In this document: piece by piece, positions 30,905 to 62,808 of the stretch | Layout: every line of letters begins with the position of its first letter | Numbering within the stretch: position 1 is the stretch's first letter | Assembly (NCBI RefSeq): GCF_032854445.1 | Contig: NC_088301.1 | Span: 9,916,281 to 9,980,280 of the forward strand | DNA length: 64,000 bases | From: Liolophura sinensis | Taxonomy: Eukaryota > Mollusca > Polyplacophora > Chitonida > Chitonidae | Direction of reading: 5' to 3' | The notes under the pieces: generated by a model | Told to the model about the DNA's origin: nothing | Databases searched by the model: none | What the model saw: only the letters and a program-made list of their open reading frames with translations | Position numbers and translations under genes: made by a program

Positions 30905-32154
30905 ATGGCTTACTCTCACCACCTCTCTCAACATTCCTATCAGGACTTTCTACAACTGTGGACAAGCCTTGAGGAGCTCAGCCCAGATAACTCTTACCCT
31001 ACCCTCACCACAGAGGCTGACACAGAGCATAACCTTCTTGGTTCATCCCTGGAGGATCTCCACTCTGAGTTAACAACTGAGGACATACCTTGTGAGGCGG
31101 TCTCCACAATGAACTCTTCTCCCACATCTCACATCGCTGGTCAAATATCCACAGTGACCAGTCCTTCTGCCCAGTTCTCCTCCCCACATAGCAACAACCC
31201 CATCCTGTCCTGGGTCAAACCTCACCTCAGATTGTCACAAGTCCTTCAGGAGAGCAAGTGTATGCCAAACATTCCACTCCTTCCAACACCAATTATCCTG
31301 GCACATACGGATTCCAAGTCTCCTTTTCTCCACCTCAGAAAGAGACCAAGTCCACAAGCTGGACATACTCTGCCCTCGGCCACAAGCTTTATGACAAGAT
31401 GGCCAGCTCCTGTCCTGTCCAGTTTCACACCAGTCAGCCTCCACCAGAGGGCAGTATTATCCGAGCCATGGCCGTTTTCAGCAAGGCAGAACACGCTCAA
31501 GCTGTGGTCACACGGTGTCCTAACCATGTCAGCAGCAGAGAGCACAACCAGAACCACCCTGCTCCTAGTCACCTTGTTCGCTGTGAGCATCAACTCAGTC
31601 ACTGCCTGGACGATCCTTCCACAGGCAGACACAGTGTGCTCACTCCTTATCAGCAGCCACAGGCTGGCTGCCCTCATCTCACCTATCTCTACCAGTTCAT
31701 GTGTCTGGGATCCTGTGTGGGAGGACCCAACAGAAGACCAATGCAGATTGTCTTCACCCTAGAGAACGACCAGCTAGTTCTGGGAAGAGCCGCTGTAGAC
31801 ATCCGCATCTGTGCCTGTCCTGCCCGTGACAAGAGGCTGGAGGAAAAGTCCTATTTACCTAAACCTCCAGCTTCCTCTCCCAGCTACACCACAGGCGACA
31901 AACCCAGGGCCGCTCACAAGAGGAAACTTGACACCACAGACACTTTTACCATCACCATTCATGGCCGTGATAACTTTGAAATCTTACGCAAAATCAGAGA
32001 TTCCTTAGAACTCATGTCTTCTTTATCCAATGATCAAGTCACTCATACAGACAATGTAAAGTTTCCAAATCCTGTACTCAACTTTTACAGCATGACTTGT
32101 CAACAGAGTTCTTTTCATTGCCACAAATTATTCCCCCTCTACAGATGGTTCAAT
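30905..32154 (+). pseudogene. p53: p53-family copy 1, frameshifted
   Basis: All domains are recognisable, but three single-base changes break the frame: +T near 31166, +G near 31211 (both in the linker before the DNA-binding domain) and -1 near 32045 after the tetramerisation domain. The last leads into an 18-bp deletion that removes the usual stop. The DNA-binding and tetramerisation regions stay open as one frame from 31258 to 32187, with KLYDKM where other copies have KLYVKM. It could be a true pseudogene or hold sequencing errors; the downstream spacer also has extra single-base indels. Confidence 0.8.
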
Positions 32155-34717
32155 ATTATGTACATATCTTGTTACATTGCCTATTAAGTTTATGTTATTG
32201 TTTTCCTTCCTTATTTTTGCTCTTTTTTACATTGAAATAATAAAATTTTCATTCAACCACATACATTTGTTTGCTGTTGTCAATGTGATTTCTGCTCTTT
32301 GCTCAACTCCATTCATGAATATATTTCATAATCTTTCTCCATGTGTTTTACTTAAAAGTTTCAATGACAAACTTTGACAATATTCCTGTTCTTACAGCAC
32401 CAGTATTCACCCATGTCCTGAAAATGTCTCATTTCTTGGTGACAAACAGTCCTGATTAGGTTTATGAATTCTTACATTATTTGAAGCATTGTTGCATTCA
32501 GGCATCTAAAGGACATCTGGAATATGCCACAGCCATAACAGATTCCTATTACATGCAAAGTGTCTAAAACCCATAAGATGGGAAAACAAAATTACCACAT
32601 AATAAAGCAACTCCAGAGATATCTTTTACATCATTATTACACGGATTTACTGTGTTCAAATAAAGAATACATAAACATTAAATTTTATTCCCCATTAGAG
32701 ACCAGGCTTCAAAACTTCAAGGGTCCTCTACATGAGAACACACACATCACAACTGGTATTCAACATTTCCAGGTATTCACATGTTTCAATACTGATAATG
32801 TTTAAAGGATATTATATCAAATCAGTCTACAGCTACACTTTCCTGACAACACATCACAACAGGTTATTAAACATCAATCAGCCTCTACTGAGTTCAATAT
32901 CCAGTCAGAAAGTCAATCCACCTAATATCCATCTTGTCTTTACCACAACTGGCACCACAGCACCCCACGCCAATTAAAGGTCAATCTAAATACACAAAGT
33001 TTACCCAGTAATTGGTGTTCAACAACCACAAGTGGTACAGTTCTGTTATACATGCATGTATGCAAACACCAAACAGTGGTCTGACACTTTAACTCATCAC
33101 ACATTGATATCCAGTACCCAGGTGTGATTATGGTGGTGCCAGTTATGTATAGACAGCAGACAATATCTTCAGCCATTTCTTACAGGGCAATCTTCTTAAC
33201 AGTCACTGGTGTTAAACTTACAGCCAAGTGAGATGGCTGGTACCAAGAAGTATATACATCAATTGTCTGCTGGGCTATACTCATCCTTAATACCTATGGT
33301 CAATCATTAACTTTCAACAGTAAGTCTGATATGGTGCCACTTTTTCAGGAGGACAACTGCAAGGCATCCTGACCTTTAAACTGTGTCAATGCTCTTTGAT
33401 CTTTAACATCCAGCTGTGTCATGGTGCCTTTTACATGTAAACACACCAAGTCATAGGTGCTATCTCTCTGAAAAATGTATTATTCATGATTAACTATAAA
33501 CATAAGGTCCTGGTCCTCAATTAATCTTGATTTACTTCACTTTTCATATATCAGGTACTTTAAAAAGTTAGTTCTTCAATAAATTTAGTTTTTTTATAGA
33601 AACTGATTCATCACAAGTACACATCTCATTACTTTACAACCAACAGTTCACATCTTATCAGAAATTTGTTAAGGAAATAATCAGTGCATAGTTGTGATTA
33701 AGAGAATGTACATGTTTTTGGAAATACAATTTTCCAAATGCTACAAAATAATGAAATTCATATTTGCAAAAAAGGGGGAAAAATGAATTAATACGCTATA
33801 AGTATTTTTTCCAAATACTACTATTTTCCCAATACATACACAAACAAAACATATTCAATTTATTGCCAAACAAAATTAACATCTCACCTTTAGAAAATAA
33901 AACCTTCTTAAAACTTTTTCATCAAATGCCAGAGATAAAACTATTACTTCTGACCACTATTCCTCAACAAATTTTACATTCATCACAAGCAGGTAAGCAA
34001 ACACAATCACAAAACTATGCGTCTTACAGATTGCGGACTCCAAAAATCCATTTGTATACATGTACACCCTAACAAACAACTGCAGAAATATCAGTATATA
34101 TATCCAATCATTCTTTCAAGGTTTCAAACATTTACTGGTCAGGAAGTCTACAGAACTCAAAGCCCCCTGTTAGAGGTCTCTCCAATAATTCTTGACATTA
34201 TCATACACTACATGATTCTTTCTTTTGGTTTTATTAAATCTTTCAAAAGTGTTCATTCATTTCTTGGAGAAGAAAGTTATTACCATCACAAAAATGTAAA
34301 GTATGAAAAAATGCAAATGCTTTTCAGGAAAACTCGACAAAAACTCATACTTTGATCAGCATAATAAGAATTTTAACCTTCTACTTCAAGTTGATCACTT
34401 GAACATTCATTTAAAAGAAAATCATTATTTAATACACAAACAATATCAAAAACCTCATATACAGATAAACCACAATAATGAGAGAAAAAAATACAGCTCA
34501 CGGACTTTGATTGGATTAACCCAAATAAATCCCAGCAGGAAACCCCCAGCTGAATATCTACCAGCTAATTGGGTATTCTTTCCCCCTCCCACAAAAAAAA
34601 TATTAGAATAGACTCCACCCAGTCCATTCCCTGGGTCAGAACCATCAAAGAGGTGCCCCACTGAGCTGTGAGGACAACTCGGCCCCTTTTCTGTCCTGGT
34701 CTGGGAGAAATGTCCCC
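32155..34717 (+). repeat. Array spacer 1
   Basis: Standard spacer, with many extra single-base insertions between about 33000 and 34700 ('tctgctgggctatac', 'tttttcaggaggac', 'ccccctcccac') compared with the later spacers. No gene. Confidence 0.75.
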
Positions 34718-34725
34718 TATATATA
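34718..34725 (+). promoter_or_regulatory. p53: TATA box, p53 copy 2
   Basis: TATATATA at -57 from the ATG. Here the preceding bases differ (CCCC instead of CTT), yet the octamer and spacing are kept. Confidence 0.65.
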
Positions 34726-34774
34726 CTTCAGCACACTGACCACATCTCACTTCTCACTCAGATCGATTTCCAAC

Positions 34775-36025
34775 ATGGCTTACTCTCACCACCTCTCTCA
34801 ACATTCCTATCAGGACTTTCTACAACTGTGGACAAGCCTTGAGGAGCTCAGCCCAGATAACTCTTACCCTACCCTCAACACAGAGGCTGACACAGAGCAT
34901 AACCTTCTTGGTTCATCCCTGGAGGATCTCCACTCTGAGTTAACAACTAAGGACATACCTTGTGAGCCGGTCTCCACAATAAACCCTTCTCCCACATCTC
35001 ACATCGCTGGTCAAATATCCACAGTGACCAGTCCTCTGCACAGTTCTCCTACCCACACAGCAACAACCCCATCCTGTCCTGGTCAAACCTCACCTCAGAT
35101 TGTCACAAGTCCTTCAGGAGAGCAAGTGTATGCCAAACATTCCACTCCTTCCAACACCAATTATCCTGGCACATACGGATTCCAAGTCTCCTTCTCTCCA
35201 CCCCAGAAAGAGACCAAATCCACAAGCTGGACATACTCTGCCCTCGGCCGCAAGCTTTATGTCAAGATGGCCAGCTCCTGTCCTGTCCAGTTTCACACCA
35301 GTCAGCCTCCACCAGAGGGCAGTATTATCCGAGCCATGGCCGTTTTCAGCAAGGCAGAACACACTCAAGCTGTGGTCACACGGTGTCCTAACCATGTCAG
35401 CAGCAGAGAGCACAACCAGAACCACCCTGCTCCTAGTCACCTTGTTCGCTGTGAGCATCAACTCAGTCACTACCTGGACGATCCTTCCACAGGCAGACAC
35501 AGTGTGCTCACTCCTTATCAGCAGCCACAGGCTGGCTGCCCTCATCTCACCTATCTCTACCAGTTCATGTGTCTGGGATCCTGTGTGGGAGGACCCAACA
35601 GAAGACCAATGCAGATTGTCTTCACCCTAGAGAACGACCAGCTAGTTCTGGGAAGAGCCGCTGTAGACATCCGCATCTGTGCCTGTCCTGCCCGTGACAA
35701 GAGACTGGAGGAAAAGTCCTATTTACCTAAACCTCCAGCTTCCTCTCCCAGTTACACCACAGGCGACAAACCCAGGGCCGCTCACAAGAGGAAACTTGAC
35801 ACCACAGACACTTTTACCATCACCATTCATGGCCGTGATAACTTTGAAATCTTACGCAAAATCAGAGATTCCTTAGAACTCATGTCTTCTTTATCCAATG
35901 ATCAAGTCACTCAATACAAACAATGTAAAGTTTCCAAATCCTGTACTCAACTTTTACAGCATGACTTGTCAACAGAGTTCTTTTCATTGCCACAAATTAT
36001 TCCCCCTCTACAGATGGTTCAATAA
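34775..36025 (+). CDS. p53: p53-family protein, copy 2 (416 aa, intronless)
   Basis: Complete frame with the same domain order as copy 6. Differences from copy 6 sit mainly in the N-terminal linker: T35N, E59K, S71P, Q76H, P89H and P93T. There is one change at the end of the first half of the DNA-binding domain (A197T), and Ala rather than Gly at 199. Zinc ligands and DNA-contact arginines are unchanged. The in-frame upstream extension seen in other copies is not available here, which supports the MAYS start. AATAAA follows the stop at 36127-36132. Confidence 0.9.
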
Positions 36026-38592
36026 TTCTAAGGGTAAATACAATTATGTCCATATATTGTTACATTGCTTATTAAGTTTATGTTATTGTTTTCCTTCTTT
36101 ATTTTTGCTCTTTTTTACATTGATATAATAAAATTTTCATTCAACCACATACATTTGTTTGCTGTTGTCAATGTCATTTCTGCTCTTTGCTCAATTCCAT
36201 TCATGAATATATTTCATAATTCTTCTCCATGTGTTTTACTTAAAAGTTTCAATGACAAACTTTGACAAGATTCCTGTTCTTACAGCACCAGTATTCACCC
36301 ATGTCCTGAAAATGTCTCATTTCTTGGTGACAAACAGTCCTGATTAGGTTTATGAATTCTTACATTATTTGAAGCATTGTTGCACTCAGGCATCTAAAGG
36401 ACATCTGGAATATGCCACAGCCATAACAGATTCCTATTACATGCAAAGTGTCTAAAACCCATAAGATGGGAAAACAAAATTACCACATAATAAAGCAACT
36501 CCAGAGATATCTTTTACATCATCACTACATGGATTTACTGTGTTCAAATAAAGAATACATAAACATTAAATCTTATTCCCCATTAGAGACAAGGCTTCAA
36601 AATTTCAAGGGTCCTCTACATGAGAACATACACACATCGCAACTGGTATTCAACATTTCCAGGTATTCACATGTTTCAAGACTGATAATGCTTAACAGAT
36701 ATTGTATCAAATCAGTCTGCAGCTACACTTTCCTGACAACACATCACAACAGGTTATTAAACATCAATCATCCACTGCTGAGTTCAATATCCAGTCAGAA
36801 AGTCAATCCACTTAATATCCCATCTTGTCTTTACCACAACTGGAACCACAGAACCCCACGCTATTAAAGGTCAATCTAAATACAAATTGTTGTACCCAGT
36901 AATTGGTGTTCAACAACCACAAATGGTACAGTTCTGTTATACATGCATGTATGCAAACACCAAACAGTGTCTGACACTTTAACTCATCACACATTGATAT
37001 GTAGTACCCAGGTGTGATATGGTGGTGCCAGTTATGTATAGACAGCAGACAATATCTTCAGCCATTTCTTACAGGGCAATCTTCTTACCAGTGATTGGTG
37101 TTAAACTTACAGCCAAGTGAGATGGCTGGTACTAAGAAGTATATACATCAATGTCTGCTGGCTATACTCATCCTTAACACCTGTGGTCAATCATTAACTT
37201 TCAACAGTAAGTCTGATATGGTTCCACTTTTCAGGAGACAACAGGCAAGGCATCCTGACCTTTAAACTGTGTCAATGCTCTTTGATCTTTAACATCCAGC
37301 TGTGTCATGGTGCCTTTTACATGTAAACACACCAATTCTTAGGTGCTATCACTCTGAAAATGTATTATTCATGATTAACTATAAACATAAGGTCCTGGTC
37401 CTCAATTAATCTTGATTTACTTCACTTTTCATATATCAGGTACTTTAAAAAGTTAGTTCTTCAATAAATTTAGTTCTTTATAGAAACTGATTCATCACAA
37501 GTACACATCTCTTTACTTTACAACCAACAGTTCACATCTTTATCAGAAACATGTTAAGAAAATAATCAGTGCATATTTGTGATTAAGAGAATGTACATGT
37601 TTTGGAAATACAAGTTTCCAATTGCTACAAAATACTGAAATTCATCTTTGCAAAAAAAGGAAAAAAAATGAATTAATCCTCTAGAAGTATTTTTTCAAAG
37701 ACTACTATTTTTCAATACATACACAAACAAAATATATTCAATTCATTGCCAAACAAATTTAACATCTCACCTTTAGAAAATAAAACCTTCTTAAAACTTT
37801 TCATCAAATGCCAGAGATAAAACTATTAATTCTGACCACCATTCCTCAACAAATTTTACATTCATCACAAGCAGATAAGCAACACAATCACAAAACCATG
37901 TGTCTTACAGATTGCGGACTCCAAAAATCCATTTGTATACATGTACACCCTAACAAACAACTGCAGAAATATCAGTATATATATCCAATCATTCTTTCAA
38001 GGTTTCAAACATTTACTGGTCAGGAATTCTACACAACTCAAAGCCCCCTGTTAGAAGTCTCTCCAATAATTCTTTACATTATCATACACTACATGATTCT
38101 TTCTTTTGGTTTTATTAAATCTTTCAAAAGTGTTCATTCATTTCTTGGAGAAGAAGTTATTACCATCACAAAAATGTGAAGTATGAAAAATGCAAATGCT
38201 TTTCGGGAAAACTCGACAAAAACTCATACTTTGATCAGCATAATGAGGAATTTTAAACCTTCTACTTCAATTTGATCACTTGTACATCCATTTAAAAGAA
38301 AATCATTATTTAATACACAAACAATATCAAAAACCTCATATACAGATAAACCACAATAATGAGAGAAAAAAATACTGCTCACAGACTTTGATTGGATTAA
38401 TCCAAATAAATCCTTGCAGGGAACCCCAGCTGAATATCTCCAGCTAATTGGGTACTCTTTCCCCCTCCACAAAAAGGATTAAAATAGACTCCACCCAGTT
38501 ATTCAATGGGTCCAGAACCATCAAAGAGGTGCCCCACTGAGCTGTGAGGACAACTCGGCCCCTTTTCTGTCCCTGGTCTGGGAGAAATGTCT
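36026..38592 (+). repeat. Array spacer 2
   Basis: Nearly identical to spacers 3 and 4 through its first 2 kb. It holds a 123-codon frame (37808-38179), a version of the recurrent spacer frame. Single-base indels appear after about 38150. Confidence 0.75.
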
Positions 38593-38600
38593 TATATATA
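38593..38600 (+). promoter_or_regulatory. TATA box, p53 copy 3
   Basis: TATATATA at -57 from the ATG at 38650. The downstream gene is frameshifted in this assembly. Confidence 0.55.
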
Positions 38601-38649
38601 CTTCAGCACACTGACCACATTTCACTTCTCACTCAGATCGATTTCCAAC

Positions 38650-39906
38650 ATGGCTTACTCTCAGCACGTCTCTCAACATTCCTATCAGGACTTTCTACAA
38701 CTGTGGACAAGCCTTGAGGAGCTCAGCCCAGATAATTCTTACCCTACCCTCACCACAGAGGCTGACACAGAGTATAACCTTCTTGGTTCATCCCTGGAGG
38801 ATCTCCACTCTGAGTTAACAAATAAGGACATACCTTGTGAGTTGGTCTCCACAATTAACTCTTCTCCCACATCTCAGATGGCTGGTCAAATATCCACAGT
38901 GACCAGTCCTCTGCCCAGTTTTCCTCCTCACATAGCAACAACCCCATCCTGTCCTGGTCAAACCTCACCTCAGATTGTCACAAGTCCTTCAGGAGAGCAA
39001 GTGTATGCCAAACATTCCACTCCTTCCAACACCAATTATCCTGGCACATAACGGATTCCAAGTCTCCTTCTCTCCACCCCAGAAAGAGACCAAATCCACA
39101 AGCTGGACATACTCTGCCCTCCGGCCGCAAGCTTTATGTCAAGATGGCCAGCTCCTGTCCTGTTCAGTTTCACACCAGTCAGCCTCCACCAGAGGGCAGT
39201 ATTATCCGAGCCATGGCCCGTTTTCAGCAAGGCAGAACACGCTCAAGGCTGTGGTCACACGGTGTCCTAACCATGTCAGCAGCAGAGAGCACAACCAGAA
39301 CCACCCTGCTCCTAGTCACCTTGTTCGCTGTGAGCATCAACTCAGTCACTACCTGGACGATCCATCCACAGGCAGACACAGTGTGCTCACTCCTTATCAG
39401 CAGCCACAGGCTGGCTGCCCTCATCTCACCTATCTCTACCAGTTCATGTGTCTGGGATCCTGTGTGGGAGGACCCAACAGAAGACCAATGCAGATTGTCT
39501 TCACCCTAGAGAACGACCAGCTAGTTCTGGGAAGAGCCGCTGTAGACATCCGCATCTGTGCCTGTCCTGCCCGTGACAAGAGGACTGGAGGAAAAGTCCT
39601 ATTTACCTAAACCTCCAGCTTCCTCTCCCAGCTACACCACAGGCGACAAACCCAGGGCCGCTCACAAGAGGAAACTTGACACCACAAGACACTTTTAACC
39701 ATCACCATTCATGGCCGTGATAACTTTGAAATCTTACGCAAAATCAGAGATTCCTTAGAACTCATGTCTTCTTTATCCAATGATCAAGTCACTCAATACA
39801 AACAATGTAAAGTTCCAAATCCTGTACTCAACTTTTACAGCATGACTTGTCAACAGAGTTCTTTTCATTGCCACAAATTATTCCCCCTCTACAGATGGTT
39901 CAATAA
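38650..39906 (+). pseudogene. p53: p53-family copy 3, eight single-base frameshifts
   Basis: Compared with copy 4 it has seven 1-bp insertions (near 39051, 39121, 39219, 39247, 39583, 39687, 39698) and one 1-bp deletion (near 39812). These give a length of 1257 instead of 1251 nt. Otherwise the two copies are almost identical, apart from two substitutions just after the ATG (SQHV instead of SHHL). Indels are concentrated between about 38150 and 39820 while the flanks match copy 4's, so uncorrected sequence error is as likely as real decay. Confidence 0.75.
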
Positions 39907-42465: not shown

Positions 42466-42473
42466 TATATATA
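42466..42473 (+). promoter_or_regulatory. p53: TATA box, p53 copy 4
   Basis: TATATATA at -57. A pyrimidine-rich 'cttctcactcagatcg' with initiator-like CA dinucleotides lies about 30 nt downstream, so the 5' UTR would be only about 20 nt. Confidence 0.65.
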
Positions 42474-42522
42474 CTTCAGCACACTGACCACATTTCACTT
42501 CTCACTCAGATCGATTTCCAAC

Positions 42523-43773
42523 ATGGCTTACTCTCACCACCTCTCTCAACATTCCTATCAGGACTTTCTACAACTGTGGACAAGCCTTGAGGAGCTCAGC
42601 CCAGATAATTCTTACCCTACCCTCACCACAGAGGCTGACACAGAGTATAACCTTCTTGGTTCATCCCTGGAGGATCTCCACTCTGAGTTAACAAATAAGG
42701 ACATACCTTGTGAGTTGGTCTCCACAATTAACTCTTCTCCCACATCTCAGATGGCTGGTCAAATATCCACAGTGACCAGTCCTCTGCCCAGTTTTCCTCC
42801 TCACATAGCAACAACCCCATCCTGTCCTGGTCAAACCTCACCTCAGATTGTCACAAGTCCTTCAGGAGAGCAAGTGTATGCCAAACATTCCACTCCTTCC
42901 AACACCAATTATCCTGGCACATACGGATTCCAAGTCTCCTTCTCTCCACCCCAGAAAGAGACCAAATCCACAAGCTGGACATACTCTGCCCTCGGCCGCA
43001 AGCTTTATGTCAAGATGGCCAGCTCCTGTCCTGTTCAGTTTCACACCAGTCAGCCTCCACCAGAGGGCAGTATTATCCGAGCCATGGCCGTTTTCAGCAA
43101 GGCAGAACACGCTCAAGCTGTGGTCACACGGTGTCCTAACCATGTCAGCAGCAGAGAGCACAACCAGAACCACCCTGCTCCTAGTCACCTTGTTCGCTGT
43201 GAGCATCAACTCAGTCACTACCTGGACGATCCTTCCACAGGCAGACACAGTGTGCTCACTCCTTATCAGCAGCCACAGGCTGGCTGCCCTCATCTCACCT
43301 ATCTCTACCAGTTCATGTGTCTGGGATCCTGTGTGGGAGGACCCAACAGAAGACCAATGCAGATTGTCTTCACCCTAGAGAACGACCAGCTAGTTCTGGG
43401 AAGAGCCGCTGTAGACATCCGCATCTGTGCCTGTCCTGCCCGTGACAAGAGACTGGAGGAAAAGTCCTATTTACCTAAACCTCCAGCTTCCTCTCCCAGC
43501 TACACCACAGGCGACAAACCCAGGGCTGCTCACAAGAGGAAACTTGACACCACAGACACTTTTACCATCACCATTCATGGCCGTGATAACTTTGAAATCT
43601 TACGCAAAATCAGAGATTCCTTAGAACTCATGTCTTCTTTATCCAATGATCAAGTCACTCAATACAAACAATGTAAAGTTTCCAAATCCTGTACTCAACT
43701 TTTACAGCATGACTTGTCAACAGAGTTCTTTTCATTGCCACAAATTATTCCCCCTCTACAGATGGTTCAATAA
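42523..43773 (+). CDS. p53: p53-family protein, copy 4 (416 aa, intronless)
   Basis: Complete frame. Relative to copy 6: H42Y, T58N, E59K, P65L, I77M, S91F and T95I in the N-terminal half, with Ala at 199. The DNA-binding domain is otherwise unchanged. An in-frame ATG at 42460 would add 21 residues, but it lies upstream of the TATA box and is unlikely to be transcribed. AATAAA is at 43875-43880, 102 nt after the stop. Copy 3 is its closest relative. Confidence 0.92.
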
Positions 43774-45629: not shown

Positions 45630-45643
45630 CACAAAACCATGTG
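45630..45643 (+). repeat. Target site duplication, left
   Basis: cacaaaaccatgtg, repeated exactly at 45809-45822 on the other side of the SINE. In the other units this sequence is present once. Confidence 0.93.
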
Positions 45644-45808: not shown

Positions 45809-45822
45809 CACAAAACCATGTG
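45809..45822 (+). repeat. Target site duplication, right
   Basis: Exact second copy of the 14-bp sequence at 45630-45643. Confidence 0.93.
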
Positions 45823-46512: not shown

Positions 46513-46520
46513 TATATATA
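46513..46520 (+). promoter_or_regulatory. p53: TATA box, p53 copy 5
   Basis: TATATATA at -57 from the ATG at 46570. The SINE lies about 0.7 kb further upstream and does not touch it. Confidence 0.65.
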
Positions 46521-46569
46521 CTTCAGCACACTGACCACATCTCACTTCTCACTCAGATCGATTTCCAAC

Positions 46570-50387: not shown

Positions 50388-50395
50388 TATATATA
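50388..50395 (+). promoter_or_regulatory. p53: TATA box, p53 copy 6
   Basis: TATATATA at -57. A one-base longer T run ('cccctttttctgtcc') lies upstream, but the TATA-ATG spacing is unchanged. Confidence 0.65.
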
Positions 50396-50444
50396 CTTCA
50401 GCACACTGACCACATCTCACTTCTCACTCAGATCGATTTCCAAC

Positions 50445-51695
50445 ATGGCTTACTCTCACCACCTCTCTCAACATTCCTATCAGGACTTTCTACAACTGTG
50501 GACAAGCCTTGAGGAGCTCAGCCCAGATAACTCTTACCCTACCCTCACCACAGAGGCTGACACAGAGCATAACCTTCTTGGTTCATCCCTGGAGGATCTC
50601 CACTCTGAGTTAACAACCGAGGACATACCTTGTGAGCCGGTCTCCACAATTAACTCTTCTCCCACATCTCAGATCGCTGGTCAAATATCCACAGTGACCA
50701 GTCCTCTGCCCAGTTCTCCTCCCCACACAGCAACAACCCCATCCTGTCCTGGTCAAACCTCACCTCAGATTGTCACAAGTCCTTCAGGAGAGCAAGTGTA
50801 TGCCAAACATTCCACTCCTTCCAACACCAATTATCCTGGCACATACGGATTCCAAGTCTCCTTCTCTCCACCCCAGAAAGAGACCAAATCCACAAGCTGG
50901 ACATACTCTGCCCTCGGCCGCAAGCTTTATGTCAAGATGGCCAGCTCCTGTCCTGTTCAGTTTCACACCAGTCAGCCTCCACCAGAGGGCAGTATTATCC
51001 GAGCCATGGCCGTTTTCAGCAAGGCAGAACACGCTCAAGGTGTGGTCACACGGTGTCCTAACCATGTCAGCAGCAGAGAGCACAACCAGAACCACCCTGC
51101 TCCTAGTCACCTTGTTCGCTGTGAGCATCAACTCAGTCACTACCTGGACGATCCTTCCACAGGCAGACACAGTGTGCTCACTCCTTATCAGCAGCCACAG
51201 GCTGGCTGCCCTCATCTCACCTATCTCTACCAGTTCATGTGTCTGGGATCCTGTGTGGGAGGACCCAACAGAAGACCAATGCAGATTGTCTTCACCCTAG
51301 AGAACGACCAGCTAGTTCTGGGAAGAGCCGCTGTAGACATCCGCATCTGTGCCTGTCCTGCCCGTGACAAGAGACTGGAGGAAAAGTCCTATTTACCTAA
51401 ACCTCCAGCTTCCTCTCCCAGCTACACCACAGGCGACAAACCCAGGGCCGCTCACAAGAGGAAACTTGACACCACAGACACTTTTACCATCACCATTCAT
51501 GGCCGTGATAACTTTGAAATCTTACGCAAAATCAGAGATTCCTTAGAACTCATGTCTTCTTTATCCAATGATCAAGTCACTCAATACAAACAATGTAAAG
51601 TTTCCAAATCCTGTACTCAACTTTTACAGCATGACTTGTCAACAGAGTTCTTTTCATTGCCACAAATTATTCCCCCTCTACAGATGGTTCAATAA
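50445..51695 (+). CDS. p53: p53-family protein, copy 6 (416 aa, intronless; reference copy)
   Basis: Sequence-specific transcription factor of the p53/p63/p73 family, by its domains. Residues 12-25 hold [14 protein letters not shown], with F15, W19 and L22 spaced like the MDM2-binding and transactivation motif. Residues 60-125 are a Ser/Thr/Pro-rich linker. Residues about 131-312 are the DNA-binding domain: zinc ligands C204, H207, C266, C270; R203, R276, R300 and R307 match human R175, R248, R273 and R280; K148 matches K120. An NLS-like KPRAAHKRK is at 332-340. A tetramerisation domain ([20 protein letters not shown]) spans 346-375. There is no SAM domain. The last 40 residues are unrecognised. 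A single exon with its own TATA box and poly(A) signal suggests a retrogene. Start chosen at MAYS because the upstream ATG precedes the TATA box and the ATG context is aacATGG. Confidence 0.95.
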
Positions 51696-54262
51696 TTCTA
51701 AGGGTAAATACAATTATGTCCATATATTGTTACATTGCTTATTAAGTTTATGTTATTGTTTTCCTTCTTTATTTTTGCTCTTTTTTACATTGATATAATA
51801 AAATTTTCATTCAACCACATACATTTGTTTGCTGTTGTCAATGTGATTTCTGCTCTTTGCTCAACTCCATTCATGAATATATTTCATAATCCTTCTCCAT
51901 GTGTTTTACTTAAAAGTTTCAATGCCAAACTTTGACAAGATTCCTGTTCTTACAGCACCAGTATTCACCCATGTCCTGAAAATGTCTCATTTCTTGGTGA
52001 CAAACAGTCCTGATTAGGTTTATGAATTCTTACATTATTTGAAGCATTGTTGCATTCAGGCATCTAAAGGACATCTGGAATATGCCACAGCCATAACAGA
52101 TTCCTATTACATGCAAAGTGTCTAAAACCCATAAGATGGGAAAACAAAATTACCACATAATAAAGCAACTCCAGAGATATCTTTTACATCATTATTACAT
52201 GGATTTACTGTGTTCAAATAAAGAATACATAAACATTAAATCTTATTCCCCATTAGAGACAAGGCTTCAAAATTTCAAGGGTCCTCTACATGAGAACATA
52301 CACACATCGCAACTGGTATTCAACATTTCCAGGTATTCACATGTTTCAAGACTGATAATGCTTAACAGATACTGTACCAAATCAGTCTGCAGCTACACTT
52401 TCCTGACAACACATCACAACAGGTTATTAAACATCAATAATCCACTGCTGAGTTCAATATCCAGTCAGAAAGTCAATCCACTTAATATCCCATCTTGTCT
52501 TTACCACAACTGGAACCACAAAACCCCACGCTATTAAAGGTCAATCTAAATACAAATTGTTGTACCCAGTAATTGGTGTTCAACAACCACATGTGGTACA
52601 GTTCTGTTATACATGCATGTATGCAAACACCAAACAGTGTCTGACACTTTAACTCATCACACATTGATATGTAGTACCCAGGTGTGATATGGTGGTGCCA
52701 GTTATGTATAGACAGCAGACAATATCTTCAGCCATTTCTTACAGGGCAATCTTCTTACCAGTGATTGGTGTTAAACTTACAGCCAAGTGAGATGGCTGGT
52801 ACCAAGAAGTATATACATCAATGTCTGCTGGCTATACTCATCCTTAACACCTGTGGTCAATCATTAACTTTCAACAGTAAGTCTGATATGGTTCCACTTT
52901 TCAGGAGACAACTGGCAAGGCATCCTGACCTTTAAACTGTGTCAATGCTCTTTGATCTTTAACATCCAGCTGTGTCATGGTGCCTTTTACATGTAAACAC
53001 ACCAATTCTTAGGTGCTATCACTCTGAAAATGTATTATTCATGATTAACTATAAACATAAGGTCCTGGTCCTCAATTAATCTTGATTTACTTCACTTTTC
53101 ATATATCAGGTACTTTAAAAAGTTAGTTCTTCAATAAATTTAGTTCTTTATAGAAACTGATTCATCACAAGTACACATCTCTTTACTTTACCACCAACAG
53201 TTCACATCTTTATCAGAAACATGTTAAGAAAATAATCAGTGCATATTTGTGATTAAGAGAATGTACATGGTTTGGAAATACAAGTTTCCAATTGCTACAA
53301 AATACTGAAATTCATCTTTGCAAAAAAAGGAAAAAAAATGAATTAATCCTCTAGAAGTATTTTTTCAAAGACTACTATTTTTCAATACATACACAAACAA
53401 AATATATTCAATTCATTGCCAAACAAATTTAACATCTCACCTTTAGAAAATAGAACCTTCTTAAAACTTTTCATCAAATGCCAGAGATAAAACTATTAAT
53501 TCTGACCACCATTCCTCAACAAATTTTACATTCATCACAAGCAGATAAGCAACACAATCACAAAACCATGTGTCTTACAGATTGCGGACTCCAAAAATCC
53601 ATTTGTATATATGTACACCCTAACAAACAACTGCAGAAATATCAGTATATATATCCAATCATTCTTTCAAGGTTTCAAACATTTACTGGTCAGGAATTCT
53701 ACACAACTCAAAGCACCCTGTTAGAGGTCTCTCCAATAATTCTTTACATTATCATACACTACATGATTCTTTCTTTTGGTTTTATTCAATCTTTCAAAAG
53801 TGTTCATTCATTTCTTGGAGAAGAAAGTTATTACCATCACAAAAATGTGAAGTATGAAAAATGCAAATGCTTTTCAGGAAAACTCGACAAAAGCTCATAC
53901 TTTGATCAGCATAATAAGAATTTTAACCTTCTACTTCAATTTGATCACTTGTACATCCATTTAAAAGAAAATCATTAATTAATACACAAACAATATCAAA
54001 AACCTCATATACAGATAAACCACAATAATGAGAGAGAAAAATACAGCTCACAGACTTTGATTGGATTAACCCAAATAAATCCCAACAGGGAACCCCAGCT
54101 GAATATCTACCAGCTAATTGGGTATTCTTTCCCCCTCCACAAAAAAATATTAGAATAGACTCCACCCAGTCATTCCCTGGGTCAGAACCATCAAAGAGGT
54201 GCCCCACTGAGCTGTGAGGACAACTCGGCCCCTTTTCTGTCCCTGGTCTGGGAGAAATGTCT
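51696..54262 (+). repeat. Array spacer 6
   Basis: Standard spacer with a 166-codon version of the recurrent frame (53478-53978), ended by 'catcattaatt'. No other gene. Confidence 0.78.
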
Positions 54263-54270
54263 TATATATA
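54263..54270 (+). promoter_or_regulatory. p53: TATA box, p53 copy 7
   Basis: TATATATA at -57 from the ATG at 54320. Confidence 0.65.
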
Positions 54271-54319
54271 CTTCAGCACACTGACCACATCTCACTTCTC
54301 ACTCAGATCGATTTCCAAC

Positions 54320-55570
54320 ATGGCTTACTCTCACCACCTCTCTCAACATTCCTATCAGGACTTTCTACAACTGTGGACAAGCCTTGAGGAGCTCAGCCCA
54401 GATAACTCTTACCCTACCCTCACCACAGAGGCTGACACAGAGCATAACCTTCTTGGTTCATCCCTGGAGGATCTCCACTCTGAGTTAACAACCGAGGACA
54501 TACCTTGTGAGCCGGTCTCCACAATTAACTCTTCTCCCACATCTCAGATCGCTGGTCAAATATCCACAGTGACCAGTCCTCTGTCCAGTTCTCCTCCCCA
54601 CACAGCAACAACCCCATCCTGTCCTGGTCAAACCTCACCTCAGATTGTCACAAGTCCTTCAGGAGAGCAAGTGTATGCCAAACATTCCACTCCTTCCAAC
54701 ACCAATTATCCTGGCACATACGGATTCCAAGTCTCCTTCTCTCCACCCCAGAAAGAGACCAAATCCACAAGCTGGACATACTCTGCCCTCGGCCGCAAGC
54801 TTTATGTCAAGATGGCCAGCTCCTGTCCTGTTCAGTTTCACACCAGTCAGCCTCCACCAGAGGGCAGTATTACCCGAGCCATGGCCGTTTTCAGCAAGGC
54901 AGAACACGCTCAAGCTGTGGTCACACGGTGTCCTAACCATGTCAGCAGCAGAGAGCACAACCAGAACCACCCTGCTCCTAGTCACCTTGTTCGCTGTGAG
55001 CATCAACTCAGTCACTACCTGGACGATCCTTCCACAGGCAGACACAGTGTGCTCACTCCTTATCAGCAGCCACAGGCTGGCTGCCCTCATCTCACCTATC
55101 TCTACCAGTTCATGTGTCTGGGATCCTGTGTGGGAGGACCCAACAGAAGACCAATGCAGATTGTCTTCACCCTAGAGAACGACCAGCTAGTTCTGGGAAG
55201 AGCCGCTGTAGACATCCGCATCTGTGCCTGTCCTGCCCGTGACAAGAGACTGGAGGAAAAGTCCTATTTACCTAAACCTCCAGCTTCCTCTCCCAGCTAC
55301 ACCACAGGCGACAAACCCAGGGCCGCTCACAAGAGGAAACTTGACACCACAGACACTTTTACCATCACCATTCATGGCCGTGATAACTTTGAAATCTTAC
55401 GCAAAATCAGAGATTCCTTAGAACTCATGTCTTCTTTATCCAATGATCAAGTCACTCAATACAAACAATGTAAAGTTTCCAAATCCTGTACTCAACTTTT
55501 ACAGCATGACTTGTCAACAGAGTTCTTTTCATTGCCACAAATTATTCCCCCTCTACAGATGGTTCAATAA
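54320..55570 (+). CDS. p53: p53-family protein, copy 7 (416 aa, intronless)
   Basis: Complete frame. Changes from copy 6: P89S in the linker, I185T in the DNA-binding domain (GSITRAMA, in the strand matching human TRVRAMA) and Ala at 199. The human protein also has a small residue nearby, so the change is not obviously disabling. The C-terminal NLS, tetramerisation domain and tail are identical to the other copies. Confidence 0.92.
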   Translation: MAYSHHLSQHSYQDFLQLWTSLEELSPDNSYPTLTTEADTEHNLLGSSLEDLHSELTTEDIPCEPVSTINSSPTSQIAGQISTVTSPLSSSPPHTATTPSCPGQTSPQIVTSPSGEQVYAKHSTPSNTNYPGTYGFQVSFSPPQKETKSTSWTYSALGRKLYVKMASSCPVQFHTSQPPPEGSITRAMAVFSKAEHAQAVVTRCPNHVSSREHNQNHPAPSHLVRCEHQLSHYLDDPSTGRHSVLTPYQQPQAGCPHLTYLYQFMCLGSCVGGPNRRPMQIVFTLENDQLVLGRAAVDIRICACPARDKRLEEKSYLPKPPASSPSYTTGDKPRAAHKRKLDTTDTFTITIHGRDNFEILRKIRDSLELMSSLSNDQVTQYKQCKVSKSCTQLLQHDLSTEFFSLPQIIPPLQMVQ

Positions 55571-57656
55571 TTCTAAGGGTAAATACAATTATGTCCATAT
55601 ATTGTTACATTGCTTATTAAGTTTATGTTATTGTTTTCCTTCTTTATTTTTGCTCTTTTTTACATTGATATAATAAAATTTTCATTCAACCACATACATT
55701 TGTTTGCTGTTGTCAATGTCATTTCTGCTCTTTGCTCAATTCCATTCATGAATATATTTCATAATTCTTCTCCATGTGTTTTACTTAAAAGTTTCAATGA
55801 CAAACTTTGACAAGATTCCTGTTCTTACAGCACCAGTATTCACCCATGTCCTGAACATGTCTCATTTCTTGGTGACAAACAGTCCTGATTAGGTTTATGA
55901 ATTCTTACATTATTTGAAGCATTGTTGCACTCAGGCATCTAAAGGACATCTGGAATATGCCACAGCCATAACAGATTCCTATTACATGCAAAGTGTCTAA
56001 AACCCATATGATGGGAAAACAAAATTACCACATAATAAAGCAACTCCAGAGATATCTTTTACATCACCACTACATGGATTTAATGTGTTCAAATAAAGAA
56101 TACATAAACATTAAATCTTATTCCCCATTAGAGACAAGGCTTCAAAACTTCAAGGGTCCTCTACATGAGAACATACACATCACAACTGGTATTCAACATT
56201 TCCATGTTACATCAATGTCTGCTGGCTATACTCATCCTTAATACCTGTGGTCAATCATTAACTTTCAACAGTAAGACTGATATGGTTCCACTTTTCAGGA
56301 GACAACAGGCAAGGCATCCTGACCTTTAAACTGTGTCAATGCTCTTTGATCTTTAACATCCAGCTGTGTCATGGTGCCTTTTACATGTAAACACACCAAT
56401 TCTTAGGTGCTATCACTCTGAAAATGTATTATTCATGATTAACTATAAACATAAGGTCCTGGTCCTCAATTAATCTTGATTTACTTCACTTTTCATATAT
56501 CAGGTACTTTAAAAAGTTAGTTCTTCAATAAATTTAGTTTTTTATAGAAACTGATTCATCACAAGTACACATCTCTTTACTTTACCACCAACAGTTCACA
56601 TGTTTATCAGAAACATGTTAAGAAAATAATCAGTGCATATTTGTGATTAAGAGAATGTACATGTTTTGGAAATACAATTTTCCAATTGCTACAAAATACT
56701 GAAATTCATCTTTCCAAAAAAAGGAAAAAAAATGAATTAATCCTCTAGAAGTATTTTTTCAAAGACTACTATTTTTCAATACATACACAAACAAAATATA
56801 TTCAATTCATTGCCAAACAAATTTAACATCTCACCTTTAGAAAATAAAACCTTCTTAAAACTTTTCATCAAATGCCAGAGATAAAACTATTAATTCTGAC
56901 CACCATTCCTCAACAAATTTTACATTCATCACAAGCAGATAAGCAACACAAACACAAAACCATGTGTCTTACAGATTGCGGACTCCAAAAATCCATTTCT
57001 ATATATGTACACCCTAACAAACAACTGCAGAAATATCAGTACATATATCCAATCATTCTTTCAAGGTTTCAAACATTTACTGGTCAGGAATTCTACACAA
57101 CTCAAAGCCCCCTGTTAGAAGTCTCTCCAATAATTCTTTACATTATCATACACTACATGATTCTTTCTTTTGGTTTTATTAAATCTTTCAAAAGTGTTCA
57201 TTCATTTCTTGGAGAAGAAAGTTATTACCATCACAAAAATGTGAAGTATGAAAAATGCAAATGCTTTTCAGGAAAACTTGACAAAAACTCATACTTTGAT
57301 CAGCATAATAAGAATTTTAACTTTCTACTTCAATTTGATCACTTGTACATTCATTTAAAAGAAAATCATTATTTCATACACAAACAATATCAAAAACCTC
57401 ATATACACATAAACCACAATAATGAGAGAGAAAAATACAGCTCACAGACTTTGATTGGATTAACCCAAATAAATCCCAGCAGGGAACCCCAGCTGAATAT
57501 CTACCAGCTAATTGGGTATTCTTTCCCCCTCCACAAAAAAATATTAGAATTGACTCCACCCAGTCATTCTCTGGGTCAGAACCATCAAAGAGGTGCCCCA
57601 CTGAGCTGTGAGGACAACTCGGCCCCTTTTCTGTCCCTGGTCTGGGAGGAATATCC
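55571..57656 (+). repeat. Array spacer 7 (deletion of about 485 bp)
   Basis: At about 56203 'attcaacatttcca' is joined by a few filler bases to 'tacatcaatgtctgctgg', removing sequence present in every other spacer. Before the break it shares 'acccatatgatggg' and 'ggatttaatgtg' only with spacer 8. It also has the longest spacer frame (268 codons, 56872-57678). Confidence 0.85.
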
Positions 57657-57664
57657 TATATATA
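57657..57664 (+). promoter_or_regulatory. p53: TATA box, p53 copy 8
   Basis: TATATATA at -57. The upstream context is changed ('ggaatatcc' instead of 'gaaatgtct'), removing the spurious upstream ATG while the octamer stays. Confidence 0.65.
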
Positions 57665-57713
57665 CTTCAGCACACTGACCACATCTCACTTCTCACTCAG
57701 ATCGATTTCCAAC

Positions 57714-58964
57714 ATGGCTTACTCTCACCACCTCTCTCAACATTCCTATCAGGACTTTCTACAACTGTGGACAAGCCTTGAGGAGCTCAGCCCAGATAAC
57801 TCTTACCCTACCCTCACCACAGAGGCTGACACAGAGCATAACCTTCTTGGTTCATCCCTGGAGGATCTCCACTCTGAGTTAACAACTGAGGACATACCTT
57901 GTGAGCTGGTCTCCACAATGAACTCTTCTCCCACATCTCAGTATGCTGGTCAAATATCCACAGTGACCAGTCCTCTGCCCAGTTCTCCTCCCCACATAGC
58001 AACAACCCCATCCTGTCCTGGTCAAACCTCACCTCAGATTGTCACAAGTCCTTCAGGAGAGCAAGTGTATGCCAAACATTCCACTCCTTCCAACACCAAT
58101 TATCCTGGCACATACGGATTCCAAGTCTCCTTCTCTCCACCTCAGAAAGAGACCAAATCCACAAGCTGGACATACTCTGCCCTCGGCCACAAGCTTTATG
58201 TCAAGATGGCCAGCTCCTGTCCTGTTCAGTTTCACACCAGTCAGCCTCCACCAGAGGGCAGTATTATCCGAGCCATGGCCGTTTTCAGCAAGGCAGAACA
58301 CGCTCAAGGTGTGGTCACACGGTGTCCTAACCATGTCAGCAGCAGAGAGCACAACCAGAACCACCCTGCTCCTAGTCACCTTGTTCGCTGTGAGCATCAA
58401 CTCAGTCACTACCTGGACGATCCTTCCACAGGCAGACACAGTGTGCTCACTCCTTATCAGCAGCCACAGGCTGGCTGCCCTCATCTCACCTATCTCTACC
58501 AGTTCATGTGTCTGGGATCCTGTGTGGGAGGACCCAACAGAAGACCAATGCAGATTGTCTTCACCCTAGAGAACGACCAGCTAGTTCTGGGAAGAGCCGC
58601 TGTAGACATCCGCATCTGTGCCTGTCCTGCCCGTGACAAGAGGCTGGAGGAAAAGTCCTATTTACCTAAACCTCCAGCTTCCTCTCCCAGCTACACCACA
58701 GGCGACAAACCCAGGGCCGCTCACAAGAGGAAACTTGACACCACAGACACTTTTACCATCACCATTCATGGCCGTGATAACTTTGAAATCTTACGCAAAA
58801 TCAGAGATTCCTTAGAACTCATGTCTTCTTTATCCAATGATCAAGTCACTCAATACAAACAATGTAAAGTTTCCAAATCCTGTACTCAACTTTTACAGCA
58901 TGACTTGTCAACAGAGTTCTTTTCATTGCCACAAATTATTCCCCCTCTACAGATGGTTCAATAA
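57714..58964 (+). CDS. p53: p53-family protein, copy 8 (416 aa, intronless)
   Basis: Complete frame with no in-frame ATG upstream, so 416 aa is the only reading. Changes from copy 6: P65L, I69M, I77Y and T95I in the linker, and R159H in the DNA-binding domain (ALGHKLY). Gly at 199 is shared with copies 6 and 9. Zinc-binding and DNA-contact residues are intact. Confidence 0.93.
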
Positions 58965-61500
58965 TTCTAAGGGTAAATACAATTATGTCCATATATTGTT
59001 ACATTGCTTATTAAGTTTATGTTATTGTTTTCCTTCTTTATTTTTGCTCTTTTTTACATTGATATAATAAAATTTTCATTCAACCACATACATTTGTTTG
59101 CTGTTGTCAATGTCATTTCTGCTCTTTGCTCAATTCCATTCATGAATATATTTCATAATTCTTCTCCATGTGTTTTACTTAAAAGTTTCAATGACAAACT
59201 TTGACAAGATTCCTGTTCTTACAGCACCAGTATTCACCCATGTCCTGAACATGTCTCATTTCTTGGTGACAAACAGTCCTGATTAGGTTTATGAATTCTT
59301 ACATTATTTGAAGCATTGTTGCACTCAGGCATCTAAAGGACATCTGGAATATGCCACAGCCATAACAGATTCCTATTACATGCAAAGTGTCTAAAACCCA
59401 TATGATGGGAAAACAAAATTACCACATAATAAAGCAACTCCAGAGATATCTTTTACATCACCACTACATGGATTTAATGTGTTCAAATAAAGAATACATA
59501 AACATTAAATCTTATTCCCCATTAGAGACAAGGCTTCAAAACTTCAAGGGTCCTCTACATGAGAACATACACATCACAACTGGTATTCAACATTTCCCAG
59601 TATTCACGTATTTCAAGACTGATAATGCTTAAAGGATATTATATCAAATCAGTCTGCAGCTACACTTTCCTGACAACACATCATAACAGCTTATTAAACA
59701 TCAATCAGCCACTACTGAGTTCAATATCCAGTCAGAAAGTCAATCCACTTAATATCCCATCTTGTCTTTACCACAACTGGAACCACAGAACCCCACGCTA
59801 TTAAAGGTCAATCTAAATACAAATTGTTGTACCCAGTAATTGGTGTTCAACAACCACATGTGGTACAGTTCTGTTATACATGCATGTATGCAAACACCAA
59901 ACAGTGTCTGACACTTTAACTCATCACACATTGATATGTAGTACCCAAGTGTGATATGGTGGTGCCAGTTATGTATAGACAGCAGACAATATCTTCAGCC
60001 ATTTCTTACAGGGCAATCTTCTTAACAGTGATTGGTGTTAAACTTACAGCCAAGTGAGATGGCTGGTACCAAGAAGTATATACATCAATGTCTGCTGGCT
60101 ATACTCATCCTTAATACCTGTGGTCAATCATTAACTTTCAACAGTAAGACTGATATGGTTCCACTTTTCAGGAGACAACAGGCAAGGCATCCTGACCTTT
60201 AAACTGTGTCAATGCTCTTTGATCTTTAACATCCAGCTGTGTCATGGTGCCTTTTACATGTAAACACACCAATTCTTAGGTGCTATCACTCTGAAAATGT
60301 ATTATTCATGATTAACTATAAACATAAGGTCCTGGTCCTCAATTAATCTTGATTTACTTCACTTTTCATATATCAGGTACTTTAAAAAGTTAGTTCTTCA
60401 ATAAATTTAGTTCTTTATAGAAACTGATTCATCACAAGTACACATCTCTTTACTTTACCACCAACAGTTCACATGTTTATCAGAAACATGTTAAGAAAAT
60501 AATCAGTGCATATTTGTGATTAAGAGAATGTACATGTTTTGGAAATACAAGTTTCCAATTGCAAAAAACGGAAAAAAAATGAATTAATCCTCTAGAAGTA
60601 TTTTTTCAAAGACCACTATTTTTCAATACATACACAAACAAAATATATTCAATTCATTGCCAAACAAATTTAACATCTCACCTTTAGAAAATAAAACCTT
60701 CTTAAAACTTTTCATCAAATGCCAGAGATAAAACTATTAATTCTGACCACCATTCCTCAACAAATTTTACATTCATCACAAGCAGATAAGCAACACAATC
60801 ACAAACCATGTGTCTTACAGATTGCAGACTCCAAAAATCCATTTGTATACATGTACACCCTAACAAACAACTGCAGAAATATCAGTATATATATCCAATC
60901 ATTCTTTCAAGGTTTCAAACATTTACTGGTCAGGAATTCCACACAACTCAAAGCCCCCTGTTAGAGGTCTCTCCAATAATTCTTTACATTATCATACACT
61001 ACATGATTCTTTCTTTTGGTTTTATTAAATCTTTCAAAAGTGTTCATTCATTTCTTGGAGAAGAAAATTATACTATCACAAAAATGTGAAGTATGAAAAA
61101 TGCAAATGCTTTGTCAGGAAAACTCGACAAAAACTCATACTTTGATTAGCATAATAAGAATTTTAACCTTCTACTTCAAGTTGATCACTTGTACATTCAT
61201 TTAAAAGAAAATCATTATTTAATACACAAACAATATCAAAAACCTCATATACAGATAAACCACAATAATGAGAGAGAAATACAGCTCACAGACTTTGATT
61301 GGATTAACCCAAATAAATCCCAGCAGGGAACCCCAGCTGAATATCTACCAGCTAATTGGGTATTCTTTCCCCCTCCACAAAAAAATATTAGAATAGACTC
61401 CACCCAGTCATTCCCTGGGTCAGAACCATCAAAGAGGTGCCCCACTGAGCTGTGAGGACAACTCGGCCCCTTTTCTGTCCCTGGTCTGGGAGAAATGTCT
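58965..61500 (+). repeat. Array spacer 8
   Basis: Sister of spacer 7 without its large deletion. A 27-bp deletion ('caattgcaaaaaacgg', about 60560) and a few small indels make it shorter than standard. Confidence 0.78.
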
Positions 61501-61508
61501 TATATATA
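61501..61508 (+). promoter_or_regulatory. p53: TATA box, p53 copy 9
   Basis: TATATATA at -57 from the ATG at 61558. Confidence 0.65.
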
Positions 61509-61557
61509 CTTCAGCACACTGACCACATCTCACTTCTCACTCAGATCGATTTCCAAC

Positions 61558-62808
61558 ATGGCTTACTCTCACCACCTCTCTCAACATTCCTATCAGGACT
61601 TTCTACAACTGTGGACAAGCCTTGAGGAGCTCAGCCCAGATAACTCTTACCCTACCCTCACCACAGAGGCTGACATAGAGCATAACCTTCTTGGTTCATC
61701 CCTGGAGGATCTCCACTCTGAGTTAACAACCGAGGACATACCTTGTGAGCTGGTCTCCAAAATGAACTCTTCTCCCACATCTCAGACTGCTGGTCAAATA
61801 TCCACAGTGACCAGTCCTCTGCCCAGTTCTCCTACCCACATAGCAACAACCCCATCCTGTCCTGGTCAAACCTCACCTCAGATTGTCACAAGTCCTTCAG
61901 GAGAGCAAGTGTATGCCAAACATTCCACTCCTTCCAACACCAATTATCCTGGCACATACGGATTCCAAGTCTCCTTTTCTCCACCTCAGAAAGAGACCAA
62001 GTCCACAAGCTGGACATACTCTGTCCTCGGCCACAAGCTTTATGTCAAGATGGCCAGCTCCTGTCCGGTCCAGTTTCACACCAGTCAGCCTCCACCAGAG
62101 GGCAGTATTATCCGAGCCATGGCCGTTTTCAGCAAGGCAGAACACGCTCAAGGTGTGGTCACACGGTGTCCTAACCATGTCAGCAGCAGAGAGCACAACC
62201 AGAACCACCCTGCTCCTAGTCACCTTGTTCGCTGTGAGCATCAACTCAGTCACTACCTGGACGATCCTTCCACAGGCAGACACAGTGTGCTCACTCCTTA
62301 TCAGCAGCCACAGGCTGGCTGCCCTCATCTCACCTATCTCTACCAGTTCATGTGTCTGGGATCCTGTGTGGGAGGACCCAACAGAAGACCAATGCAGATT
62401 GTCTTCACCCTAGAGAACGACCAGCTAGTTCTGGGAAGAGCCGCTGTAGACATCCGCATCTGTGCCTGTCCTGCCCGTGACAAGAGGCTGGAGGAAAAGT
62501 CCTATTTACCTAAACCTCCAGCTTCCTCTCCCAGCTACACCACAGGCGACAAACCCAGGGCCGCTCACAAGAGGAAACTTGACACCACAGACACTTTTAC
62601 CATCACCATTCATGGCCGTGATAACTTTGAAATCTTACGCAAAATCAGAGATTCCTTAGAACTCATGTCTTCTTTATCCAATGATCAAGTCACTCAATAC
62701 AAACAATGTAAAGTTTCCAAATCCTGTACTCAACTTTTACAGCATGACTTGTCAACAGAGTTCTTTTCATTGCCACAAATTATTCCCCCTCTACAGATGG
62801 TTCAATAA
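61558..62808 (+). CDS. p53: p53-family protein, copy 9 (416 aa, intronless)
   Basis: Complete frame and the most diverged of the intact copies. Linker changes: T40I, P65L, T68K, I69M, I77T, P93T and T95I. In the DNA-binding domain it has A156V and R159H, with Gly at 199. Several silent changes are shared with copy 1 rather than with copies 4-8 (for example 'cagaaagagaccaagtcc'). All key zinc and DNA-contact residues are kept. Confidence 0.92.

Follow-up and report, generated by a model that had tools for sequence, protein, structure and literature searches.

Tandem arrays of intronless p53-family genes in the chiton Liolophura sinensis

Can an invertebrate genome carry a long series of p53-family genes and keep them in working order? 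The question is raised by a 64,000-nucleotide stretch of the genome of the chiton Liolophura sinensis (contig NC_088301.1, here C7; the whole stretch is called the window, and positions are counted from its first letter), in which a sequence-only reading had placed nine head-to-tail copies of an intronless p53-family gene at a spacing of about 3.875 kb. The number of p53 copies is one of the main ideas put forward for the resistance of some animals to DNA damage or cancer, and it rests mainly on elephants. Measurement of the units on the + strand confirmed the array, and the intronless state of the copies in an invertebrate host was borne out as well. Judged from their sequence, the copies are probably working genes for p53-family transcription factors, which would descend from a molluscan p63-like gene through retroposition long ago, followed by multiplication. 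The nine copies are:

30905..32187, + strand: copy 1, frame broken (the end given is that of the last open frame)
34775..36025, + strand: copy 2, intact, 416 amino acids (aa)
38650..39906, + strand: copy 3, frame broken
42523..43773, + strand: copy 4, intact, 416 aa
46570..47820, + strand: copy 5, intact, 416 aa
50445..51695, + strand: copy 6 (P0001, the reference copy), intact, 416 aa
54320..55570, + strand: copy 7, intact, 416 aa; a spacer deletion of about 480 bp lies in its unit
57714..58964, + strand: copy 8, intact, 416 aa
61558..62808, + strand: copy 9, intact, 416 aa

The starts listed are those of the coding sequences (CDS), and the final stop lies at 62808. Units 1 to 8 measure 3870, 3875, 3873, 4047, 3875, 3875, 3394 and 3844 bp, unit 9 is cut by the window end and continues to position 65186 (locus L018, counted past the window end), and the units share 96.6-99.3% pairwise DNA identity. 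Seven of the nine reading frames are intact over 416 codons, as the sequence-only reading had stated. Its account of the two disrupted copies was right about single-base indels in copies 1 and 3 but had overlooked a 19-bp deletion in copy 1; likewise, its nine units stood, but the array is slightly larger, with scrambled partial units on the left and a ninth unit that runs past the window end.

The array is accompanied by related loci elsewhere in the genome. In the assembly searched (609,464,459 bases, 632 contigs), where genome domain searches score best candidates only, the P53 domain gave 21 matches: nine in the C7 array, seven on C1, two on C6 and three in exons of a single gene on C9, with none among the scored candidates on other contigs or to the right of C7 copy 9. 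The search for the tetramerisation domain (TD) gave 20 matches, at the same loci and in a truncated fragment at window position 28103. The C1 and C6 loci are:

G000:C1:22524354-22542557 (L009-L011): second tandem array, seven intronless p53-family genes at a period of about 2.85 kb
L013 3835-5606 and L014 3740-5214 (G000:C6): C6a and C6b, p53-family genes 0.9 Mb apart, one intron each

Six open copies of the C1 array are single exons of 354-366 aa (tblastn on the locus DNA); copy 1 of this array is frame-broken, and copy 6, with ACG in place of the usual start codon, has a frame that begins at an internal ATG. C1 units 3 and 4 are identical across 2846 bp, and C1 copies 2-5 differ from copies 6 and 7 in their ends. 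Complete frames for both the DNA-binding domain (DBD) and the TD were found in 7/9 copies on C7, 6/7 on C1 and 2/2 on C6 (after joining the two exons), which makes 15 of 18 in total. An intron-bearing parent-type gene, which had been suggested as something to look for in the same genome, was found in the p63-like gene on C9 (P0005, 585 aa), which has SAM and P53_TAD domains and lies in 14 blocks over 21 kb (tblastn).

The p53-family identity of the array protein was upheld, since both domains score above the Pfam cut-offs and the closest solved relative is an annelid p53 homologue. A profile search without a p53 DNA-binding domain had been named in advance as grounds for dropping the assignment; when this search was run, PF00870 (P53) matched copy 6 with E 6.8e-61 (206 bits versus a cut-off of 27), and the proteins of copies 2 and 9, C6a and C1 likewise exceeded the cut-off. 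PF07710 (P53_tetramer) matched copy 6 with E 7.4e-13 (48 bits versus 20.7). The protein of copy 6 has an FLQLWTSL motif from aa 15, a DBD at about aa 123-316 and a tetramerisation motif at aa 342-376, with helices predicted at aa 12-24, 354-371 and 375-395. The best solved relative by sequence is 7pc6_A, the DBD of the p53 homologue of the annelid Alvinella, and the same structure was the best Foldseek match of an AlphaFold2 model (E 1.5e-24; template modelling score 0.84 by target length), with p53-family structures among the best 50 rows; the DBD of this model is mostly confident, the predicted local distance difference test score of the whole protein being just 66.5. A SAM domain, a trait of the p63/p73 subtype, gave no Pfam match in the array protein.

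Residues important for function are largely kept. In p53 numbering, mapped through human p73, C176, H179, C238, C242, R248, R273, C277 and R280 are conserved in all 15 intact copies, and the R282 position is K in the array copies. Across 18 zinc-binding, DNA-contact and neighbouring positions, agreement with human p73 is seen at 16 in the intact C7 and C1 copies and at 17 in those on C6. An FxxxWxx(L/I/V) motif occurs in each of the 15 intact copies, FLQLWTSL, a putative activation or MDM2-binding motif, fitting the FxxxWxxL pattern. One relative, P0043, lacks the F of this motif; another, P0002, is 80% identical (178/194 in the DBD) and has its frame preserved in full. When the genome was searched for the SWIB/MDM2 domain, a single match came up, an exon in a minus-strand frame at L027 1495-1695 (G000:C1:65996387-65996521), whose translation matches solved MDM2 chains with E 1e-8; one candidate for an MDM2-type regulator gene is thus seen versus 19 p53-family copies in the genome.

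Promoter-like and poly(A) motifs flank the coding sequence. The true start is likely the ATG of MAYSHH, the ATG of a longer frame of 437 aa being located upstream of a TATATATA box. In copy 6 the two flanking motifs are:

50388..50395, + strand: TATATATA box, ending 50 bases before the ATG
51797..51802, + strand: AATAAA poly(A) signal, about 100 bases past the stop

The TATATATA box ends 50 bases 5' of the ATG in all nine C7 units, and AATAAA lies about 100 bases 3' of the stop in all nine as well, 18 bases nearer in copy 1 and six further in copy 3. TATA-like boxes were also seen, by eye, upstream of the C1, C6a and C6b genes.

Signs of selection were sought in the coding sequence. Among the seven intact C7 copies the mean ratio of nonsynonymous to synonymous substitution rates is 0.60 when the entire CDS is taken; by region it is 1.19 (aa 1-122), 0.30 (DBD) and 0 (aa 317-416). 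Over aa 123-416 there are 6 replacement and 8 silent changes (expected replacement share 0.71, p 0.028), and in five C1 copies (2-5 and 7) 4 codons differ by replacement and 9 silently (p 0.004; the expected share, 0.70, is borrowed from C7); all these counts are modest, and they are uncorrected for multiple tests or shared descent. Indel events in the seven intact C7 units number 0 in coding sequence versus 22 in the spacers (10.5 coding events expected, P 3e-5), or 0 versus 11 when homopolymer sites are excluded (P 0.005). The lack of coding indels and the small number of replacements in the DBD and TD point to selection. Positive selection on aa 58-122 was considered and rejected, as 17 replacement versus 5 silent changes are indistinct from neutral.

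The origin of the genes can be approached through their introns. The stretch shared with the C9 gene holds 10 C9 introns, none of which is present on C7 or C1 (0/10), while C6a and C6b keep one each and have lost the other nine. The remaining introns (485 bp in C6a, 245 bp in C6b) are both in phase 0, at or one residue before SPPP, and in the C9 gene an intron of this phase precedes SPPP by three residues; by position and phase they are taken as the same intron. In a tree of 42 rows (including 3/9 C7 and 2/7 C1 copies), representatives of C7, C1, C6a and C6b and five relatives share one side of a branch (86/97, not starred), and they do so again (96/92, starred) in a tree of 30 rows (1 C7, 2 C1 copies) left after 12 long-branch or redundant rows were dropped by our own choice; such a side is a clade only with the root on the other side. 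C1 and C7 are grouped in the tree of 30 rows (94/83, not starred). When single loci were placed directly with the C9 gene, topology tests by the approximately unbiased p value (p-AU) weakly rejected this for C7 (0.037), were borderline for C6a (0.051) and did not reject it for C1 (0.177); neither a C6a-C6b sister grouping (0.117) nor a grouping of C6b with C7 (0.557) was settled. Because the C6 copies keep one C9-like intron and the four loci group together, in the simplest history a single retroposition of a semi-processed transcript would have come first, the last intron would have been lost ahead of the C1-C7 split, and local amplification would have followed separately at each array.

As for location, the array lies between two parts of another gene, which were matched by tblastn (E up to 1) with a human UBE3C probe. 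The features around the array are:

16318..26869, - strand: UBE3C-like HECT ligase, left exons (probe aa 527-1083; E 2e-6 to 1e-28)
27425..29833, + strand: scrambled partial units at the left array edge (blastn of unit 6)
28057..28742, + strand: 5'-truncated copy whose TD frame is open to the stop (open reading frame 27986-28330; PF07710 match at C7:9944383-9944487, window 28103-28207)
29843..30042, no strand: 200-N assembly gap within the array edge
66353..72964 (L018), - strand: UBE3C-like gene, right part (probe aa 86-521; E 0.79 to 1e-9)

Since the UBE3C parts match in order on the opposite strand on both sides, the array is, as placed by these matches, antisense inside one intron of about 39.5 kb of a UBE3C-like gene and fills most of it. 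GT and AG borders were found by eye at both intron ends, and one left exon matched HECT with E 1.1e-4, slightly under Pfam's cut-off. The UBE3C probe had no match at the fetched C1, C6 and C9 loci. A genome search with the 2557-bp C7 spacer matched 18 pieces, all of them within this array (C7:9943705-9981624); the spacer is therefore no dispersed repeat, and a transposable element carrying p53 was rejected as the vehicle. An Rfam search of the window gave no structured RNA at the gathering threshold. On the right, the array terminates in a direct duplication of 158 bp, present twice with a 97% match (L018 1127-1443, or 65127-65443 in window numbering). Large minisatellites occur near three of the four retro loci, at window 4608-7007 and 8840-9682, L009 1163-5305 and L013 492-1484 (36 bp x 67, 30/59 bp, 66 bp x 63 and 63 bp x 16). 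A link between arrays and minisatellites was not adopted, as large ones are present at C7, C1 and C6a, smaller ones at the C9 gene and none above the score used at C6b (L014).

It is probable, then, that these are working genes of retroposed origin, and the following course of events may be proposed. A nearly fully spliced transcript of the mollusc p63-like gene, with one intron kept, would have been copied back into the genome, acquired its own TATA promoter and settled at a few places; the last intron would have been lost in the branch giving the two arrays, and unequal exchange may then have multiplied the gene head to tail, both on scaffold C1 and within the UBE3C intron. Each intact copy would be transcribed from its TATA promoter into a full p53-like activator without SAM, which may tetramerise, bind p53-type sites and be restrained by MDM2, and the main effect of the arrays would be a higher p53-family dosage, which may matter under stress or in the germ line. 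Retrogenes are often encountered in gonads, and guarding germ cells is a task of early p53-family genes, so that a role in the germ line is plausible. That the copies function is likely, to go by what they encode.

Several observations weigh against this proposal. The array protein is not matched by the Pfam P53_TAD model (PF08563). A scan of the 1.5 kb upstream of C7 copy 6, C1 copy 3, C6a and C6b gave no p53 response element at two or fewer mismatches, and p53 autoregulation via a promoter site was rejected on these four stretches. Taken alone, neither the DBD (p 0.10) nor the C-terminal part (p 0.09) departs significantly from expectation, and aa 1-122 are unconstrained within the array (20 replacement versus 6 silent changes, as neutral). 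The indel test is conditional on copies picked as intact, and all nine units together give 11 coding and 42 noncoding indel events; gene conversion could account for part of the constraint. The Logan relatives are perhaps genomic contigs, the frame of P0069 starting where the unspliced genomic C6b frame does. In addition, the suggested retroposition is argued from intron loss, and not from a poly(A) tail or target-site repeats, for which no search was made.

Some of these points would suit a history in which chance multiplication took place within an intron prone to repeats: the old retrogene, important now or in the past, would have left mostly silent copies with one, two or none active, and low variation would be due to recent copying and gene conversion. 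The units are indeed young or homogenised (1-3% apart, with a largely unresolved tree), the frame is broken in two copies on C7 and one on C1, aa 1-122 appear unconstrained, and minisatellites lie near the C7, C1 and C6a loci; nevertheless, such a passive history appears unlikely in view of the 0 coding versus 22 spacer indels in the seven intact units, the rarity of replacement changes in the DBD and TD as against silent and spacer changes, which are not rare, the comparable surplus of silent changes in the other array on C1, and the fact that one genome contains two arrays of this gene group. The copies might also act as decoys, dominant-negative or MDM2-absorbing, and thereby make the intron-bearing p63-like gene more active, a role that has been proposed for the TP53RTG proteins of elephants. 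This would fit the MDM2-type motif kept in 15/15 intact copies, the excess of copies over the single MDM2-type exon match, and a TD that could mix with that of the parent, but the DNA-contact residues are kept and replacements in the DBD and TD are few, unlike the elephant proteins as described in the excerpted text of PMC5061548, which makes a decoy role rather improbable.

It may further be asked whether the units are all real, and how the frames of copies 1 and 3 came to be broken. The CDS of copy 1 has three single-base indels and the 19-bp deletion at the stop, and that of copy 3 has seven single-base insertions and one deletion, all within unit positions 463-1220 (about 760 bases); unit 3 thus shows eight coding indels yet just five private substitutions. 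The inserted base duplicates a neighbour in 20/21 insertions private to unit 1 and 7/7 in unit 3 (27/28 in total, 0.43 expected by chance). These neighbour-repeating insertions are spread across unit 1 (30842-34711) and packed in copy 3 (about 39049-39813). PacBio errors typically repeat the neighbouring base. According to the excerpted text of the published genome (PMC11068029; the species was renamed from L. japonica to L. sinensis by correction PMC12441733), coverage was 14x in HiFi reads of about 8 kb with a reported read error of 0.74%. Given such insertions, coverage and read error, the indels of copies 1 and 3 may be consensus errors, and real decay of the two copies is doubtful, though slippage would leave an identical mark. 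Unit 1, which starts about 800 bases past the assembly gap, may be truly divergent because it has 55 private substitutions. The broken copies were analysed as assembled, with no base restored. These possible consensus errors, the modest coverage and read error, the 200-N gap at the left edge and the two C1 units identical over 2846 bp would all be compatible with fewer real units, inflated by mis-assembly of the reads or by haplotypes placed in tandem, but this is very unlikely: every C7 unit has private differences (including the deletion of about 480 bp and a 179-bp insertion), nine units exceed what two haplotypes could give, the spacer has no match outside the C7 array, and the UBE3C exons to either side of the array occur once, in the right order.

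A bolder and more tentative proposal concerns what the arrays are for. It is possible that they represent an independent amplification of p53 dosage in an invertebrate, in which two arrays of complete, TATA-driven intronless genes give most of the p53-family output and are kept by selection for copy number, as a full-protein counterpart of the elephant expansion. If so, a second, independent case of p53 copy-number expansion would stand beside elephants, and the tie to large body size would no longer hold, this mollusc of the intertidal zone being small yet having about 15 extra copies that are complete. A role in DNA-damage response, ageing or resistance to transmissible cancer, which the sequence-only reading had offered as inference, would be just as conjectural. 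No report of p53 multiplication in chitons was found in the open-licence literature, which leaves its absence from the published record unproven.

Expansion of p53 by retrogenes is known as such, and what is unusual in the chiton is the invertebrate host, the full-length proteins, the two tandem arrays and the nesting in a UBE3C-like intron. Compared with molluscan p53/p63/p73 proteins (Mya p53, Lottia TAp63gamma and L. sinensis P0005), the array protein shares the DBD, the TD and FxxxWxxL, with 45-47% identity along about 90% of its sequence; introns and the SAM form belong to the C9 gene, whereas the array gene is a single exon without SAM, on a much longer branch of the tree of 42 rows. Lineage-specific extra copies of p53-family genes, some without SAM, also exist in mosquitoes, Nasonia, Tribolium, Branchiostoma and Ciona; these are described as duplications, and the excerpted text of PMC5543598 mentions neither an array nor intronless copies, both of which the chiton has. 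The closest parallel in kind is the elephant TP53RTG family, with 19 TP53 retrogenes, 14 of them potentially encoding truncated proteins, which spread by segmental duplication and whose proteins are reportedly without the residues needed to bind DNA, localise to the nucleus and form tetramers (PMC5061548, as excerpted). Both animals have many p53-family retrocopies beside an intron-bearing gene, with one retroposition, a probable one in the chiton, followed by multiplication at the DNA level (the elephant part again from the excerpt of PMC5061548). Unlike the elephant genes, the 18 chiton copies form two tight tandem arrays and two single genes, 15 of them with complete DBD and TD frames, and their likely source is an invertebrate p63-like gene; the two expansions appear to be independent in origin.

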